A stretch of 64,000 nucleotides of DNA from Pseudomonadota bacterium (lineage in GTDB: Bacteria > Pseudomonadota > Alphaproteobacteria > UBA1280 > RI-95), in contig WGLU01000006.1 in assembly GCA_016125375.1 (NCBI GenBank), positions 124,001 to 188,000 on the forward strand, in the 5' to 3' direction. The position numbers and the translations under genes are program-made. The first letter of the stretch is position 1; every line of letters starts with the position of its first letter. This document shows, one piece after another, positions 5,816-58,961 of this stretch. Under the pieces are notes generated by a model that was not told the origin of the DNA, did no database searches, and saw nothing but the letters and a program-made list of their open reading frames with translations.

Positions 5816-7699
5816 TCAAACCGCTTTTTTCTGTTGCGGCTGTTGGGTGGCGTACGGGCTGTTGGCGGCAGGGGTGTACTCGGGCACCAGTGCGCGCAGC
5901 GCGGCCACGGCTGCTGCCGCATCCTCGGCAGCGCAGGCAGATTTAATCATCGCAAGGTGGTTTTTCAACTCGGTTTTACCCATGCTGCGGGCGGCACCGA
6001 GGAAAATTCCCTCGCGGTGGGTCTTTTTGAGGTTCTCCTCGTCATGGAGCAGTTCCTCGAACAGTTTTTCACCCGGGCGCAGGCCAACTTCGACAATCTC
6101 GATATCCACTTCGGGGATGAGGCCGCTCAGGCGCACCATTTCGCACGCCATATCGTAGATGTTGACGGGCTTGCCCATATCGAGAACAAAAATCTCGCCC
6201 CCTTCGCCCATGGTACCGGCCTGAATGGTCAGCTGTACCGCTTCCGGGATGGTCATAAAGTAGCGGGTCATGCGCTTGTCGGTCACGGTTACCGGACCGC
6301 CGGCGGCAATCTGCGACTGGAACAGCGGCACGACCGAGCCTTTGCTACCCAGCACGTTGCCAAAGCGGACGGTGATATAACGGGTCGGGCCCTCGTGGTT
6401 CTGGCAATAGATTTCGGCCGCGCGCTTGGTTGCCCCCATCACGTTGGTGGGGTTGACGGCCTTGTCGGTACTGATGATGACCATGGTGCCAACCTTGTGT
6501 TTGGCGGCCGTGTCGGCCACGGTCAGGGTACCGAACAGGTTGTTGACGATGCCGTTCAGCGGGTTGGATTCCACCATCGGCACGTGTTTGTACGCGGCAG
6601 CGTGGAAGACGACCTCTGGCGCGAAACGGCTGAATACATTGTCCATGTCGTCCTTGTTGCGGACATCTGCCAGAATGCTGTGACGCTCTGTCTGCGGCGC
6701 AAGACGGGTCATTTCCATGTCGACTTCGTACAGGGCGAACTCGCTGTTTTCGACCATGACCAACTGGCTGCACCCGAGGGCGGTAATCTGGCGGCACAGT
6801 TCGCTGCCGATGGAGCCACCGGCGCCGGTCACCAGCACGCGTTTGCCTTCCAGCATGGCTTTGATGGCGGTCATGTCCAGTTTGACAGGCGGCCGGCCGA
6901 GCAGGTCTTCAATCACCACAGGGCGCAGGTTGGTGGCGCTTTCGCCCTCGGCGAGGTCGGTCACATCCGGCAGGCGCTTGATGGAGAGTTTACGCTTACG
7001 CGCGGTGGCGATCAGGCTTTCAATGCGCAGGTGTTCCTGACGGGTCAGCACGACCATATCCACCTCAACCCCCTTGGCAGCCAGACTGTCCAGCGCGTGG
7101 TCGAGGTTCACAATCGGGCCCAGAACAGGCACGCCGTGCAGGTAACGGCCCTGTTTGTCCTTTTCGTCATCCAGTACGCCCTGGACGTAGAACACCTTGG
7201 GCGACATGCGGTTGGTTTCACGCAGGAAGGCATCGGCGGCCTCGTTGGCGCCAATCAGCAGGGCGTTGATACGGGTCTTGCCGAAGCGCGGCGCGGTGGA
7301 AGCGCTCAACATTTCGCGCACATAGCGGTATGTAAAACGCGTACCGGCAAGGCCAGCCACCTGCAGGAACCACACAATGCCGAACACCATGCGGGGGAAG
7401 TTCTCCAGCCGCGTGGTCATGGTCAAAACCGTCAGGCACACCAGAACGATGACGGTTACAGCCTGTAGAATGCGTACCATCTCGCTTTCGGATGTGTAGC
7501 GCCAGATGCCGCGGTAAAGGCCGAAAATCTTGATAACAATGACGCTGAGCAGTGCATAGGGCAGCGCGTATTTGAGGTTGTGCACCATCACCTCGGGCAC
7601 CTGACCGGCAAAACGCAGGAAAAGAGCAGCGGCAAACGCAACTGCCGACACCAGCAAATCATGGGTTACAATAATGGCCAGTTTTGTCTTTAAGCCCAT
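5816..7699 (-). CDS. WbpM/FlaA1-like membrane UDP-GlcNAc 4,6-dehydratase
   Basis: This 627-residue protein has about four N-terminal transmembrane segments (to about residue 110), a first Rossmann-like CoA-binding domain and a C-terminal SDR dehydratase domain with GAGGSIGSEL. The catalytic region reads STDKAVNPTNVMGATK, with Met instead of Tyr in YxxxK, as in the large membrane WbpM/CapD group. Such enzymes turn UDP-GlcNAc into the 4-keto-6-deoxy sugar that leads to UDP-QuiNAc or UDP-FucNAc. ATG 7699 is chosen because earlier starts lie inside the upstream gene and add a Cys-rich stretch. It follows WbpL- and WbpV-like genes in the same order as in Pseudomonas O-antigen loci. Confidence 0.9.
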   Translation of the reverse strand: MGLKTKLAIIVTHDLLVSAVAFAAALFLRFAGQVPEVMVHNLKYALPYALLSVIVIKIFGLYRGIWRYTSESEMVRILQAVTVIVLVCLTVLTMTTRLENFPRMVFGIVWFLQVAGLAGTRFTYRYVREMLSASTAPRFGKTRINALLIGANEAADAFLRETNRMSPKVFYVQGVLDDEKDKQGRYLHGVPVLGPIVNLDHALDSLAAKGVEVDMVVLTRQEHLRIESLIATARKRKLSIKRLPDVTDLAEGESATNLRPVVIEDLLGRPPVKLDMTAIKAMLEGKRVLVTGAGGSIGSELCRQITALGCSQLVMVENSEFALYEVDMEMTRLAPQTERHSILADVRNKDDMDNVFSRFAPEVVFHAAAYKHVPMVESNPLNGIVNNLFGTLTVADTAAKHKVGTMVIISTDKAVNPTNVMGATKRAAEIYCQNHEGPTRYITVRFGNVLGSKGSVVPLFQSQIAAGGPVTVTDKRMTRYFMTIPEAVQLTIQAGTMGEGGEIFVLDMGKPVNIYDMACEMVRLSGLIPEVDIEIVEVGLRPGEKLFEELLHDEENLKKTHREGIFLGAARSMGKTELKNHLAMIKSACAAEDAAAAVAALRALVPEYTPAANSPYATQQPQQKKAV

Positions 7700-20107: not shown

Positions 20108-20124
20108 TGTTCATTTTGTGAACA
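20108..20124. promoter_or_regulatory. Palindrome TGTTCA-N5-TGAACA, candidate operator
   Basis: A perfect 6+6 inverted repeat with a 5-base spacer, centred about 16 bases upstream of the candidate -35 of the regulator/wecB operon. A near-identical copy (TGTTCA-N5-TGAACG) lies at 55773-55789 in the leader of the major exported protein. The local winged-helix protein is an obvious candidate to bind it. Confidence 0.45.
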
Positions 20125-53065: not shown

Positions 53066-55483
53066 TTATCCGACGTAACCGTCTTCCGGTGGCTTCTGCA
53101 TCACCACCTCGCGTTTGCCGACATGGTTAGGTGGCCCGATAAGACCGTCGGATTCCATTTGTTCAATAATCCGGGCGGCGCGGTTGTAACCAATCTGCAG
53201 GTGACGCTGGATGAAAGAGGTTGAGGCCTTCTGTTCCTTGGCCACAATCTCGATGGCTTGACGGTAGAGCGGGTCGTCGGCCAAATCGCCGCCATCTTCG
53301 CCGCCGTTGCCACCACCGCTGCCGCCGTTTGCATCGGCGTTTTTGGTGATGTTCTCGATATAGCTGGGCTTGCCCTGGCTGCGCAGGTGTTTGGCCACGT
53401 CCAGACATTCCTCTTCGGCCACAAAAGCACCGTGAACACGTTGCAGGCTCTGGGCACCGTTGCCCATAAACAGCATGTCACCTTTGCCCAGCAGCTGCTC
53501 CGCACCCATCTGGTCAAGCACCGTGCGGGAGTCGATTTTAGACGTGACGTTGAACGACATACGGGTCGGGATGTTGGCCTTAATCAGACCTGTGACCACG
53601 TCCACACTCGGGCGCTGGGTCGCAACCAGCAGGTGAATACCGGCCGCACGCGCCATCTGCGCCAAACGGGCGATAGAGGTTTCTACCTGTTTACCTGCCA
53701 CCATCATCAGGTCGGCCAGCTCGTCAATCACCACCACAATGTAGGGCATAGGTTCCTTGGCCAGCGGCTGTTCGGCCATAATTGGCTGGCCTGTATTGGG
53801 GTCAAAACCGGTCTGTACCATACGGGTAGGGATTTCACCCTTTTCCTTGAGCTCCATGAACTTGTTGTTGAAGCTCTGCATGTTCTTGACGCCGAACTCC
53901 GACATCAGGCGGTAGCGGTTTTCCATCTCCCGCACGGCCCATTGCAGGGCAACCGATGCCTTGTTCGGGTCTGTGACCACAGGGGTGAGCAGGTGGGGAA
54001 TATCGTTATAAATGCTGAGCTCCAGCATTTTGGGGTCGATCATGATAAAGCGCAGCTGCTCCGGTGTCAGACGGTAGACAAGGCTGAGAATGAACGCGTT
54101 CATGGCGACCGATTTACCCGAGCCGGTGGTACCGGCAATCAGGGCGTGGGGCATTTTGGCAATATCCGTGTAAACGGGGTTACCCGTACTGTCTACACCC
54201 AGTGCGACGGTCAGTTTACCCGGGTGGGTCTCGAACTGCTCGGTACCCAGCATCTCGCGCAGGGTTACGGTGCGGCGTTCGGGGTTGGGCATCTCGATAC
54301 CCAGTACGTTGCGACCCGGAATCGGGGCAATACGTACGGAAAGAGCGGACATGGCGCGGGCCAGATCGTCCGACAGGCCCACAACCTGAGAGGTTTTTAC
54401 ACCGGGGGCAGGCTCCAGTTCATACGTTGTAATCACGGGGCCGGGGCAGATACGGTGGACAACACCCTGTACGTTGAAGTTGGCCAGCTGTGCCTCAATC
54501 TGGCGGGCGTTCTGGGTCAGCGCTTCTTCGCTCTCCGGCTTAAAGGTGTCTTTGCTTTCGCTCAGGATATGCAGCGGCGGCAGCATGTAGCTGTCGCTCA
54601 GGTTCAAAGGCAGGGCTGTTTGACGCTCGGCTTCCACCCGTTTGGCGGGCGGTGCTACGGGAGCTGGCAACTCCACCTGTGGCTTAATCTTTTTAGGAGA
54701 CAGGCTTGCTGCGCCAAAACCAACATATTTGGGCGTTGGCATGGGCAGGTTGATTTCCATCTGCGTATCTTTTTTCAGGTCGTGGGCCATGCGGGTGGCA
54801 AGGCGCATCAACTGGACAAAGCGTACATGGACAACCTTGGCCAGCCGGTACAAGTCGTGCGTGGTCAGGTTGCTCAGCCACAAAAAGCTGAGGAACGTAA
54901 TCAGCGAGGGTAGAAACACGGCGCCGAACTCGCCCATCCAGCGGGTCAGGGTGTTGCCGACCAACAGGCCGACCAGACCACCGTTGCCGGGACCCTCAAC
55001 CGTTGGCCAGCCTGCAAATGGCTGGGCCAGCGCAAACAAACCGGCTAGCGCCACCATCAGAGGCGGAATCGTTGCCAGACGCAGCGAGAAGTGGGCAATT
55101 GGACGGTGCAGGACCAGGCTTGCCGACCAGAACAGCAAAACGGCTGCCAGTGTGTAAGACGCGGCACCAAAATAGGTCAGCAGCATATCTGCCATGTAAG
55201 CGCCAATAACGCCGCCGCCGTTATGAACACGTCCGGCGATGCTTTTGGCAACGTTGAACGACGGGTCGGCAGGGTGGAATGTGCTCAGGCTGATAATGAC
55301 ATAGCCGCACAGGAACAGCAGGATAAGACCGGCAGCCTCGTAAATACGGTAGCTGAGCATGTTCTCGGGCACGTGGCGTATCCGTGCGGGGGCGGCCTTC
55401 TCCTTTTTAGAGGCAGGCTTTTTACTGGCACCCTCCTCGGGCAGCAGGGAGGGCATATCATCGGTGCGTGGTGCGGTGGCCAT
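53066..55483 (-). CDS. ftsK: DNA translocase FtsK
   Basis: Septal DNA pump that moves chromosome ends and activates XerCD recombination. The 805-residue product has about four N-terminal transmembrane helices (to about residue 205), a Pro/Lys/Ala linker, an alpha/beta motor domain with Walker A GTTGSGKS (451-458) and Walker B VVVIDELADL (about 560), and a C-terminal gamma winged helix (TSFIQRHLQIGYNRAARI). Length is typical. It reads leftward from a start at 55483, next to the large leader region. The gene itself shows no oddity. Confidence 0.96.
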   Translation of the reverse strand: MATAPRTDDMPSLLPEEGASKKPASKKEKAAPARIRHVPENMLSYRIYEAAGLILLFLCGYVIISLSTFHPADPSFNVAKSIAGRVHNGGGVIGAYMADMLLTYFGAASYTLAAVLLFWSASLVLHRPIAHFSLRLATIPPLMVALAGLFALAQPFAGWPTVEGPGNGGLVGLLVGNTLTRWMGEFGAVFLPSLITFLSFLWLSNLTTHDLYRLAKVVHVRFVQLMRLATRMAHDLKKDTQMEINLPMPTPKYVGFGAASLSPKKIKPQVELPAPVAPPAKRVEAERQTALPLNLSDSYMLPPLHILSESKDTFKPESEEALTQNARQIEAQLANFNVQGVVHRICPGPVITTYELEPAPGVKTSQVVGLSDDLARAMSALSVRIAPIPGRNVLGIEMPNPERRTVTLREMLGTEQFETHPGKLTVALGVDSTGNPVYTDIAKMPHALIAGTTGSGKSVAMNAFILSLVYRLTPEQLRFIMIDPKMLELSIYNDIPHLLTPVVTDPNKASVALQWAVREMENRYRLMSEFGVKNMQSFNNKFMELKEKGEIPTRMVQTGFDPNTGQPIMAEQPLAKEPMPYIVVVIDELADLMMVAGKQVETSIARLAQMARAAGIHLLVATQRPSVDVVTGLIKANIPTRMSFNVTSKIDSRTVLDQMGAEQLLGKGDMLFMGNGAQSLQRVHGAFVAEEECLDVAKHLRSQGKPSYIENITKNADANGGSGGGNGGEDGGDLADDPLYRQAIEIVAKEQKASTSFIQRHLQIGYNRAARIIEQMESDGLIGPPNHVGKREVVMQKPPEDGYVG

Positions 55484-55936
55484 GTTACGTCAGCTTAACG
55501 CTCGTTTGTGTGATGTTTGTGTTCTTGGTTTTTGGTATCGGCGGATAACCTTTTATATATATCACGCCCGTCTGCGCAAGGGGCGAATTTTCTGGCCTGT
55601 TTTTGTGTGTAAGTTGAAGCGTTTGCGCCCTTAAAACTTATTCTGAGGGGGTGTGGCGGTAAAGACACGCACAATAAAAATCATTTAAAAACAGCATGTT
55701 ATTTGCACTTCGGAAATGTTACTGGCTGGTAATAGGCGGATATCCTGAGGGGATATGATTATGAAAACGCCATGTTCACCAAGTGAACGCTTTACAGGCA
55801 TGGCGCCCACGTTTTAGAAATATGGTGCCTCCTTAAAAGGGGCGTGGCTTATGGTCATTTTGCCTAATTTGGCTATAAGTCAGCGATTCAGGAAAATAAG
55901 AGTGTAATGACAACCAACAAGGGGTCTCGTCGGGAG
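55484..55936. other. Long intergenic/leader region with inverted repeats
   Basis: About 450 bases without a gene. It contains ATATCC-N5-GGATAT (55740-55756), CGCCATG (55768-55774) matched by CATGGCG (55799-55805), and the GTTCAC-CAA-GTGAAC repeat inside that pair. The region is AT-rich for the window. It separates ftsK (leftward) from the small lipoprotein and major exported protein (rightward), and is most likely a promoter plus structured untranslated leader. Confidence 0.6.
55773..55789. promoter_or_regulatory. Palindrome TGTTCA-N5-TGAACG, candidate operator
   Basis: Matches 11 of 12 half-site bases of the palindrome at 20108-20124 with the same 5-base spacer. It lies about 150 bases upstream of the 43-residue lipoprotein start. 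Confidence 0.45.
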
Positions 55937-56068
55937 ATGACTAAATTTACCAAAGCCCTGTTTGTTCTGTCTCTGGCAGTTGCCGCTTCGCTGGCTCTGA
56001 CTGCTTGTGACGACAACAACAATAGCGGTTCGACTTCGAACAACTTTGTAATCGGTAACGACGGCTAA
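55937..56068 (+). CDS. Small lipoprotein (43 residues)
   Basis: An ATG at 55937 opens a frame of 43 codons ending TAA 56066-56068. The product is a signal peptide with lipobox ALTAC (Cys24) followed by a 19-residue polar tail rich in Asn, Ser and Asp (DDNNNSGS). It is therefore a probable lipoprotein. Codons favour GCT, GGT, GTA and CTG as in the large gene downstream, which suggests high expression. AAGGGG lies about 12 bases upstream. The next gene begins 48 bases later, so the two are probably co-transcribed. Confidence 0.65.
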   Translation: MTKFTKALFVLSLAVAASLALTACDDNNNSGSTSNNFVIGNDG

Positions 56069-56116
56069 TCCGTTCGCCGGCTGAATAAGTAAATATAATT
56101 GAGGAGTGCCTTCAAG

Positions 56117-57916
56117 ATGAAACAATGGCTGAAGAATCTCGCAATCGCTGGTGCTACGGCTGGTGCCGTTGTACTGGGTGCGGCTTCTGCTTCGGCGGTC
56201 TCGTTCACCGTGGTGATCGAGAAAATCGAACTGATGAAAAACGGCAGTGACTCTGACCGTTTCGTAATTTACAACCCGTCCGCTGGTATCGCTGCTTCTG
56301 CTACCTCCACGCTGGACCTGCTGAACGCTAACAAAACCGGCGCAACCCTGGGTGTAGCTGCTCCTAAGTCGGGCACCTACAAAACCATGCTGGTAACGTT
56401 CTCCAAAATCTCCGTAGCTGCTGAAACAGCTACCATCTCCGCTACTCAAGACCTGACCGGCGCCCTGACTGGCGGCGAAGGTTTTGGTTCCGAGCTGGGC
56501 CGCAAGGTTCTGGTAATGGGTGAAGTAGACAACAACGCTGGCAAAATCGGCGCCCTGCTGGGCGGTGGTATCACTGCTGTACCGATGCAGCCGATCGTTT
56601 CCGACGGTTCTACCGTATCCCTGCCTTCCTTCAACTTCTTCCTGCCTGCTGCCAACGTTGTAACCACTGGTACCGGTACTGTTAACGTACTGAAAAACCC
56701 GGTTCCAATCTCGGTTGCTCGTACTGACGTTGACTCCGCTGCTACACCGAACGTAACTATCGGTGTTAAAGCCCGTGCGTTCCGCGGCGTATCCACCACT
56801 CTGGGCGGTACAACCGGTTCCACTTTCACTGCTAAACTGGGTCTGTTCAAGAGCGCCCTGGATCTGAAACCTGTTTACGTTAAGTCCGTAACCATGGTTT
56901 CCTCCACCGCTGTTGGCGCTGGTTCCGTAACCGAAGCCACTTTCCTGGACGTAGCTGACGGTACCTACCTGCCGCTGGCTTGGCTGGACAAAGACAGCGA
57001 CGGCCTGCTGGATTCCGGCGAAGCCTTCATCGCTGTTGACGGCGACGACACCGGTCTGGTGACCACCACCAACAACCTGGCAGCCGGTGCTGACCACCAG
57101 CACTTCCTGACTGTTAACAAGTCCGACATCTTCGGTGCAAATGCTACCACTACCGGTACCATTTCCACCACTTCGGCTGCGTTTAACACTTCTGCCACCA
57201 CGACTAACGGCAGCACAACCAACGTGAACACTGGTGCTCCTCTGGGTACTACCTTCGGTAACAACTCCGATGGTTACCTGGGTCAGTCCAGCTCGTTCTA
57301 CCTGTTCCCTGCTCGTGAGATCTCGGTTACTATCGCCTTCACCGAAGACGGTTCGACCACTCTGGACAACGGTACTGACGCTTGCGCAGCTGCTACCCGT
57401 TGCGGTCTGGGTATCACCTGGCAGGGCGGTACTGTAGCTAGCAACGCACATGCTGCTACTGTAACGTTCACTGTAGGTAGCGTAACTGCTCCGTCGTTCA
57501 CTCTCGAGCTGGACAACGGCGGCGGCGACGGCAACCTGGACAACGCTGAAACCGCGTCTCTGGTTGTTGTAGACACTGCTGGTAAGATCTCCGAGATCTC
57601 CGGTAACGCTCTGCTGACCTACGCTCAGACCGATGCCAATACCTCCACGCTGAAAATCAGCCCGGTGCCTCTGGCTACTCTGATCGACATGAACCGTAAC
57701 GTTAACACTGGCTTCGGTACCTTCTCCGTTGTTACTGCTATCCAAGCACGTAACACCGGTACTGGTAACGCACTGGGCGCGATCGACGCTGGTTCGATCA
57801 CCCAAGCTGCTGCTACCCTGGACGCTGACGCTGGCGGTAACTACTCCGGTACTACCGAGAACGTGTCCATTGTTAACGGGAACAAAGTATCGCTTTCCGC
57901 TAACCTGGGTAACTAA
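56117..57916 (+). CDS. Major exported repeat-rich protein (probable surface-layer or matrix protein)
   Basis: A 599-residue exported protein with a Sec signal (residues 1-27, AASASA). The mature part is Thr/Ser/Ala/Gly-rich and largely beta-strand, lacks a membrane anchor and has two Cys. Two EF-hand-like loops appear: DKDSDGLLDSGE (residues 291-302, a perfect Ca2+-loop pattern) and NGGGDGNLDNAE (467-478). Codon choice is extremely uniform (GCT, GGT, GTA, AAC), a sign of very high expression. ATG 56117 follows GAGGAG by 11 bases; the in-frame TTG at 56099 overlaps it. A Ca-dependent surface-layer-like role fits but is inferred. Confidence 0.75.
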   Translation: MKQWLKNLAIAGATAGAVVLGAASASAVSFTVVIEKIELMKNGSDSDRFVIYNPSAGIAASATSTLDLLNANKTGATLGVAAPKSGTYKTMLVTFSKISVAAETATISATQDLTGALTGGEGFGSELGRKVLVMGEVDNNAGKIGALLGGGITAVPMQPIVSDGSTVSLPSFNFFLPAANVVTTGTGTVNVLKNPVPISVARTDVDSAATPNVTIGVKARAFRGVSTTLGGTTGSTFTAKLGLFKSALDLKPVYVKSVTMVSSTAVGAGSVTEATFLDVADGTYLPLAWLDKDSDGLLDSGEAFIAVDGDDTGLVTTTNNLAAGADHQHFLTVNKSDIFGANATTTGTISTTSAAFNTSATTTNGSTTNVNTGAPLGTTFGNNSDGYLGQSSSFYLFPAREISVTIAFTEDGSTTLDNGTDACAAATRCGLGITWQGGTVASNAHAATVTFTVGSVTAPSFTLELDNGGGDGNLDNAETASLVVVDTAGKISEISGNALLTYAQTDANTSTLKISPVPLATLIDMNRNVNTGFGTFSVVTAIQARNTGTGNALGAIDAGSITQAAATLDADAGGNYSGTTENVSIVNGNKVSLSANLGN

Positions 57917-57947
57917 GCCTACCAATCAAATCCTTGTGGTTTGATGC

Positions 57948-57979
57948 AAAGCCCCGCTTCGGCGGGGCTTTGTTTTTGT
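57948..57979 (+). terminator. Rho-independent terminator
   Basis: AAAGCCCCGC (57948-57957), loop TTCG, GCGGGGCTTT (57962-57971), then GTTTTTGTG. It ends the major exported protein gene and is 26 bases upstream of the GspC-like start. Confidence 0.95.
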
Positions 57980-58004: not shown

Positions 58005-58961
58005 ATGAAAAACATACTGCACACTCTGAAAGCCGTCCGTATCGAACACCCGCTTGATGCGCTGGATATGCTCGTATTTTACCCGCGCCTGCGTCGGGGG
58101 CTGCGGTTAGGCCTGAGTGTGGCATTGACACTTTTTATGGCCAAGGAAGCCGCTGCTGTTTTCTGGCAGGCAGCTCTGCCGCCGGTGGCCGGGGTGGAAA
58201 CAACACTGATTACACCGCAGACACGCAGTCCACAGGCAGATATGGCTGCAAGCACGCCACTAAGCCGCTACGAACCCTTGCGGACCTCTTTACTCTTTGG
58301 CCGTTCATCGGATCTGGCCAGTGACGGACTGGTTACGGAAGCCGTGCAGGTACAAACCACCCTGAACATGACCCTGACGGGAACGGTGGTAGATGCGGAG
58401 CCACGCGCCTTTGTGCATGATAACACCACCAACAAAACCAAAGTTGTCCGGGCCGGGGATACCCTTATTCCTGCTGTCAAAGTCGAGAAAATCGACCGTC
58501 GTCGTATTTTGATTACCAATCAGGGCCGCGCAGAACAACTGGTCATGAAAACGGCGGATATCACACCCCACGGTAAGGGAGGCGGTTTAACGAGCTCTTC
58601 GGCGCCACTTGCTTATGAGCAGGAAGCAGGCAAAAAGCTGACGATTACCATTACCCGTGCCGAGGCGCTGACCGCGCTGGGCAACCCGGGCGAGCTGGCC
58701 GGTCAGGCGCAGTTTGTCAAACGGGTGAATGACGACGGCGTGCATGAGGGCTTTACATTGATGAATATTTTGCACAACTCGTTTATCAGCCGTCTTGGCC
58801 TGCAGGACGGGGATGTGCTCCTTAAACTCGACGGCGTACCCGTCGTCCAGCGGGAAAAAATCCTGCCTATGATGTTCGCACTCCAGAATGCCAAAGGTGC
58901 AGAGTTGACGCTCTTGCGTGGCGGGGAAGTGCTGGCACTCGATGTGAGTGTGGTTGAATAA
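58005..58961 (+). CDS. gspC: Type II secretion GspC-like protein (orphan)
   Basis: The 318-residue protein has a short cytosolic start, one transmembrane helix (about residues 37-56), a periplasmic T2SSC homology region with VTLTGTVV-like strand and VVRAGDTL-IPAVKVEKI (about 100-165), and a C-terminal PDZ-like domain (about 210-318, GFTLMNILHNSFISRLGLQDGDVLLKLDGVPV). That is the GspC plan. No other gsp gene is adjacent, as argS follows. ATG 58005 is used instead of the GTG at 57978, which lies within the upstream terminator's T tract. Confidence 0.82.
   Translation: MKNILHTLKAVRIEHPLDALDMLVFYPRLRRGLRLGLSVALTLFMAKEAAAVFWQAALPPVAGVETTLITPQTRSPQADMAASTPLSRYEPLRTSLLFGRSSDLASDGLVTEAVQVQTTLNMTLTGTVVDAEPRAFVHDNTTNKTKVVRAGDTLIPAVKVEKIDRRRILITNQGRAEQLVMKTADITPHGKGGGLTSSSAPLAYEQEAGKKLTITITRAEALTALGNPGELAGQAQFVKRVNDDGVHEGFTLMNILHNSFISRLGLQDGDVLLKLDGVPVVQREKILPMMFALQNAKGAELTLLRGGEVLALDVSVVE

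Follow-up and report, generated by a model that had tools for sequence, protein, structure and literature searches.

What is encoded by a gene pair in which a 43-residue lipoprotein directly precedes a 599-residue exported protein with extreme codon usage? The pair lies in a 64,000-nucleotide stretch (the window) of an alphaproteobacterial genome (1.98 Mb in 9 contigs, 97.7% completeness). A preliminary description of this DNA had placed the two open reading frames at 55937-56068 and 56117-57916, and both are found there; the description largely holds. We propose that these two genes make up a rare cassette that can move between genomes and encodes an exported protein, which is probably mass-produced, and that the pair is probably something beyond an ordinary hypothetical protein. 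The locus contains these features:

53066-55483, minus strand: ftsK (identified by Pfam search), the 5' neighbor of the cassette
55774-55788, no strand: palindrome GTTCAC-CAA-GTGAAC, a candidate operator, 163 nt 5' of the lipoprotein's ATG
55789-55936, plus strand: leader of the lipoprotein gene, with marginal structure that is not conserved in the relative
55937-56068, plus strand: 43-residue lipoprotein; lipobox LTAC, mature part starting with CDD
56102-56236, plus strand: conserved 5' block, comprising AGGAG (Shine-Dalgarno-like), a spacer, and codons 1-40 of the large gene
56117-57916, plus strand: 599-residue exported protein, codon-biased to an extreme; Sec-type leader ending in ASASA
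56117-56197, plus strand: signal peptide, residues 1-27, with cleavage site by the AxA rule; identical in the relative (27/27)
56987-57022, plus strand: canonical Ca2+-type loop DKDSDGLLDSGE, residues 291-302; DSDNDGLLDSGE in the relative
57515-57550, plus strand: second loop of the preliminary description, NGGGDGNLDNAE, residues 467-478; neither canonical nor conserved
57946-57973, plus strand: intrinsic terminator, a 12-pair hairpin; 25/28 bases equal in the relative, with pairing kept
58005-58961, plus strand: orphan gspC (T2SSC plus PDZ), outside the conserved cassette; a possible functional link

The cassette and its one detected relative

We scanned one genome from each of 84,980 species for exact matches to six 8-residue patterns (members that lack all six escape detection). 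The sole relative that was detected is from Flavimaribacter sediminis, a member of the Rhizobiaceae. The gene order is the same there, with a lipoprotein (L002:4822-4950), an exported protein (L002:5001-6695), and a terminator. The lipoproteins are 62% identical and the large proteins are 59% identical in alignment, while the flanks of the cassette are unrelated (34% identity upstream and 27% downstream, in forced alignments). The pair is a two-gene cassette that is kept as a unit and has one detected relative, which goes beyond the preliminary description. Because the lipoprotein from Flavimaribacter aligns from the same methionine, we favor a start at 55937 over the in-frame ATG at 55907.

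Other searches returned no further members. A profile (A1) matched just the window's own genome among 385 genomes of the class and just Flavimaribacter itself among 297 genomes of the relative's family. Across 398 genomes of the phylum (E <= 1), it gave the own match plus weak ones of at most 16.7 bits. Among the HMMER alignments listed, these weak matches (L026-L036) look like chance; for instance, the one in L026 is antisense to a glmU-like gene. A protein query against 60 relatives matched the own genome only, with nothing in the five genomes of the same order, and searches of viral contigs, plasmids, and phages gave none. Neither the window's genome nor Flavimaribacter has a paralogous copy. 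When the 5' block was searched as DNA, 32/385 genomes had hits at E <= 0.01, but besides the own locus these were short partial matches, which we judged to be chance. We found nothing in print on this lipoprotein/exported-protein pair, which has no name to search by.

Conservation is uneven along the large gene. The first 40 codons are identical at 110/120 nucleotides (92%), and dS is 0.36 there, versus 1.45 to saturation in five later segments. Where the aligned residue is the same (omitting Met and Trp), the codon is also the same for 27/36 of the first 40 aligned codons versus 110/285 thereafter (Fisher p = 5e-5). This near-frozen block suggests either constraint at the nucleotide level or recombination. 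RNA structure is a possible cause, as the RNAs of its two copies fold much alike, but a synonymous null gave only 29/500 and 132/500, and a test of pair-keeping gave 47/1000. At the protein level, identity falls from 27/27 in the leader and 68/83 in residues 28-110 to 45/129 in residues 471-599. This C-terminal fifth, at 35% identity, is the most divergent part. Overall, dN/dS is about 0.19, which implies that the large protein is under purifying selection.

As to regulatory signals, the preliminary description mentioned a long structured leader and a strong terminator. The terminator is borne out: its hairpin has a predicted stability of -23.9 kcal/mol (z = -4.9), and 0/200 shuffles were as stable. 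The leader's structure is marginal (z = -1.97, with 10/200 shuffles folding as well), and the leader of the relative does not stand out (z = -0.26).

A palindrome of the form GTTCAY-N3-RTGAAC lies 5' of both cassettes, at 55774 in the window and at 4730 in L002. The Flavimaribacter version, GTTCAT-TAA-ATGAAC (L002:4730-4744), nearly abuts the start of a small divergent gene that has weak helix-turn-helix (HTH) matches. This is a typical place for an operator, and the palindrome is a possible one. Such a repeat was shared by 7/4000 random pairs of windows, in a test that was devised after seeing the sequence, so we treat the shared palindrome as a lead. Apart from the copies 5' of the two cassettes, a 464-kb sample of the host's own genome has two more near gene starts; we take one to be close to the start of a glmS-like gene and the other to be beside an rpe-like gene. 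The sites of the palindrome GTTCAYNNNRTGAAC near gene starts are 20109-20123 and 55774-55788 in the window (2 found versus 0.01 expected per window by shuffling), L052:14871-14885, and L002:4730-4744. They are a possible regulon. The same sample contains no convincing HTH relative of the Flavimaribacter regulator.

Codon bias and the predicted proteins

The preliminary description viewed both genes as highly expressed from their uniform codons, proposed a comparison to ribosomal protein genes of the same genome, and held that codon use near the genome mean would speak against the idea. We ran this comparison with 24 ribosomal proteins as the reference. The large gene has an effective number of codons (Nc) of 32.6 and a codon adaptation index (CAI) of 0.786, which exceeds 17 of the 24 ribosomal proteins as scored by leave-one-out (their range was 0.655-0.823). 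Among 363 genes of at least 150 amino acids from 464 kb of the genome (shorter ORFs were dropped, and the ribosomal genes that define the CAI reference are included), it ranked 11th for low Nc and 12th for CAI. Synonymous simulations never reached the bias of the large gene, either with genome codon frequencies (0/1000) or with ribosomal-protein codon frequencies (0/1000). (The ranking and the simulations scored a 605-amino-acid form of the ORF. The EF-Tu gene, a natural extra yardstick, is interrupted by contig ends.) So, the large gene's codon use is not near the genome mean. The claim does not extend to the lipoprotein (CAI 0.695), whose short length leaves its bias unestablished: genome-mean simulations reached it in 75/1000 cases by CAI and in 18/1000 by Nc.

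We infer that the codon bias of the large gene is a mark of mass production in this host, and it predicts that the large protein is among the host's most abundant proteins. Together with the signal peptide and the terminator, the bias lends good support to the suggestion of a major exported product.

The cassette is also overlapped by an antisense ORF of 681 residues (minus strand, 55880-57925) that is open across its entire length. TTA, CTA, and TCA codons are absent from the large gene, so this ORF is best read as a by-product of codon bias. Elsewhere, another long exported-looking ORF (L055:6082-7752, minus strand, 556 amino acids) also has an Nc of 32.6. On contig 8 (G000; L015:3676-19965), a secretin gene adjoins a codon-biased pilin-like ORF (6017-6613) within a run of minus-strand genes that is perhaps a pilus or transfer cluster.

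The Sec-type leader of the large protein was assigned by motif. The predicted mature form is 57.4 kDa with a pI of 4.5, and it is rich in Thr, Ala, Gly, and Ser and has few Cys. Neither protein of the pair has a significant match in Pfam or NCBIfam. When both large proteins were trimmed and searched in parts, the best match was to DUF6692 (E = 0.04). Against the PDB, there was no match by single sequence and one match by profile (E = 0.7). PHROGs had no match to either large protein; for the lipoproteins it gave uninformative matches, mostly over the leader. Two AlphaFold predictions gave a mean pLDDT of 29 and no usable model. On visual inspection, the N-terminal domain shows its motifs in the order seen in DUF4382 (PF14321). 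The hhalign score for this comparison was above all 200 column shuffles, yet the probability was 5%. HMMER with five DUF4382 sequences gave no match, with the real proteins scoring below most shuffles, and neither whole nor trimmed large proteins reached Pfam's gathering score. We consider kinship with DUF4382 to be a weak lead.

Of the two EF-hand-like loops that had been noted, the one at residues 291-302 holds up and the one at residues 467-478 does not. The former fits DxDxDGxxDxxE, a canonical form that occurs in 27/20000 shuffles, and it satisfies the EF-hand-type pattern DxDxDGxIxxxE; the loop is conserved in the relative. Pfam's EF-hand models have no match in the large protein, so this would be a Ca2+-type loop without the helix-loop-helix.

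In both lipoproteins, the lipobox LTAC follows a hydrophobic leader, so lipidation is a motif-based prediction. The mature part has 20 residues, with Asp-Asp following the Cys (CDD in both members). In E. coli, Asp at position +2 of a lipoprotein leads to retention in the inner membrane.

Mobility, secretion, and competing explanations

The cassette in Flavimaribacter is within a mobile element. On its 5' side are a tyrosine integrase and a small gene whose HTH match falls just below Pfam's cut-off; on its 3' side are an AbiJ-like gene and a type III restriction-modification pair. Farther along are a VirD4/TraG-type coupling protein, a MobA/VirD2 relaxase, a NikA-like protein, and ParB. The element spans loci L010 and L002 and is integrated and mobilizable; its ends were not found, and a search for direct repeats beside the integrase gave one 14-base match, which is not convincing. 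The large gene looks foreign to Flavimaribacter: its GC3 is 0.43, while 56 genes of the genome have 0.70 +/- 0.07, with a minimum of 0.45. In the window's host, the codons of the large gene are fully adapted, and no integrase was noted beside the pair. The mobile-element setting and foreign GC3 in one genome, the adapted codons in the other, and the lack of further copies together indicate horizontal transfer.

The host encodes a type II secretion system (T2SS) on contig 9 (gspD, E, F, G, L, M, and N; L063:6559-17852). This cluster begins at gspD, with no gspC seen in front of it. The orphan gspC is on another contig, directly 3' of the pair and past its terminator. A gspC query against the five genomes of the same order and Flavimaribacter, run without a positive control, gave no match. 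In Flavimaribacter, we detected one secretin, between CpaB- and CpaD-like genes, which indicates that it is of the Tad pilus type. There is thus no support for the large protein of the relative leaving the cell by type II secretion.

Our preferred reading, which we hold tentatively and rate as somewhat short of probable, is that the pair is a horizontally acquired operon for a very abundant, acidic structural protein of the cell exterior and its tiny lipoprotein companion. The large protein would leave the cytoplasm via Sec. In the window's host, type II secretion, whose GspC is encoded by the adjacent gene, may carry it across the outer membrane. The large protein would then coat the cell or join a matrix, stabilized by Ca2+. 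The lipoprotein would most simply be a membrane-bound partner for the assembly or retention of the large protein. Identity as a surface-layer or biofilm-matrix protein, as had been suggested, is plausible, and the pair probably represents a new family of envelope or surface proteins that are made in bulk.

A coat is favored by the bias beyond ribosomal-protein frequencies; by the conserved Sec-type leader, lipobox, and Ca2+-type loop and the low dN/dS; by the recurrence of both genes and the terminator amid unrelated flanks; by the mass, acidity, and composition; and by the divergence of the C-terminal part, as in an exposed region. The adjacent gspC and the T2SS cluster also favor it, and Slr4 follows the same logic (PMC7821379). 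Counting against a coat are the Tad-type secretin of Flavimaribacter, the position of gspC past the terminator and outside of the cassette, the pLDDT of 29, the lack of significant bias by CAI in the lipoprotein, and the five genomes of the same order, where an ancestral main surface protein might be expected to have relatives but none were found.

An abundant periplasmic protein would also fit the mass, pI, composition, and lack of domains. It might serve as a Ca2+ buffer, in stress, or as a scaffold, and would work with an inner-membrane lipoprotein without ever passing the outer membrane. The Sec-type leader, the Ca2+-type loop, the CDD of both lipoproteins, and the lack of a detected type II secretin in Flavimaribacter agree with this. 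However, the +2 rule is not established for the host's group, rapid C-terminal divergence is more common in exposed parts, and an orphan gspC is adjacent in the window's host; we consider this explanation rather unlikely. The product might instead be defense cargo that blocks phage adsorption or predation at the surface or envelope, as the mobilizable element of Flavimaribacter has an integrase on one side of the cassette and AbiJ-like and type III restriction genes on the other. But this is a single locus whose neighborhood may be chance, no defense gene was noted beside the pair in the window, and no PADLOC model was matched by the window's proteins (the relative's protein matched only IetS, at 9 bits and E = 0.066). 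This makes defense quite doubtful. That the large protein is secreted as an enzyme, as an adhesin, or to bind nutrients, belongs to an undescribed family, and plays no structural part is if anything a shade more doubtful: the lack of a domain leaves room for an activity, but composition and codon bias indicate bulk use. The size of the lipoprotein and its position directly 5' of the exported gene would suit a lysis or release peptide that frees the large protein, as colicin release proteins do. Yet the large protein carries a Sec-type leader of its own, neither Pfam nor NCBIfam shows a toxin domain in it, and a strongly expressed lysis peptide would damage the cell, so this is very improbable.

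A more ambitious version of the preferred coat reading joins it to defense: conjugative or integrative elements would move a mass-produced surface shell among distant Alphaproteobacteria as a defense-cargo cassette. The cassette would combine a common operator and a tiny lipoprotein anchor with a 5' block that is almost frozen and an exposed part that diversifies. We think that all of this together is improbable. If the large protein is as abundant as its codons suggest, then a main component of the envelope or matrix is missing from the family libraries that we searched. The pairing with a lipoprotein, and the element with defense genes in the sole relative, would allow the transfer of a surface coat as cargo to be tested.

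Comparison with known surface-layer proteins

The RsaA protein of Caulobacter is an alphaproteobacterial surface protein that is stabilized by Ca2+. It is an RTX-type protein that uses type I secretion and lacks a cleaved Sec leader. Whereas RsaA is RTX-type, the large protein has no Pfam match of any kind. RsaA is named in the available parts of PMC7821379 and of a review of S-layers (PMC12175726).

A closer parallel is Slr4 of Pseudoalteromonas tunicata. This S-layer protein is abundant, has a mature mass of about 57 kDa and a Sec signal, and contains no known domain; it adjoins a T2SS operon and has signs of horizontal transfer (PMC7821379). The large protein likewise has a Sec signal (by motif), no known domain, a predicted mature mass of about 57 kDa, and a T2SS gene beside it, and the pair also has signs of horizontal transfer. 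There are differences. Slr4 is beside a full T2SS operon, while the large protein is beside gspC only, with the other T2SS genes elsewhere in the genome. The absence of a detected type II secretin in Flavimaribacter is the strongest result against an Slr4-like mechanism as a general rule. The window's pair includes a companion lipoprotein, and none is mentioned for Slr4 in the part of PMC7821379 covered here. Also, S-layer proteins of the Slr4 type form a two-dimensional lattice on the cell, for which the large protein is a candidate.

NpdA, an S-layer protein from Paracidovorax citrulli, has a Sec-type signal, a mature mass of 52 kDa, and no conserved domains, and it is reported from Beta- and Gammaproteobacteria in the available text (PMC10765051). 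As described there, NpdA resembles the large protein in its Sec-type signal, its similar mass, and its lack of domains.
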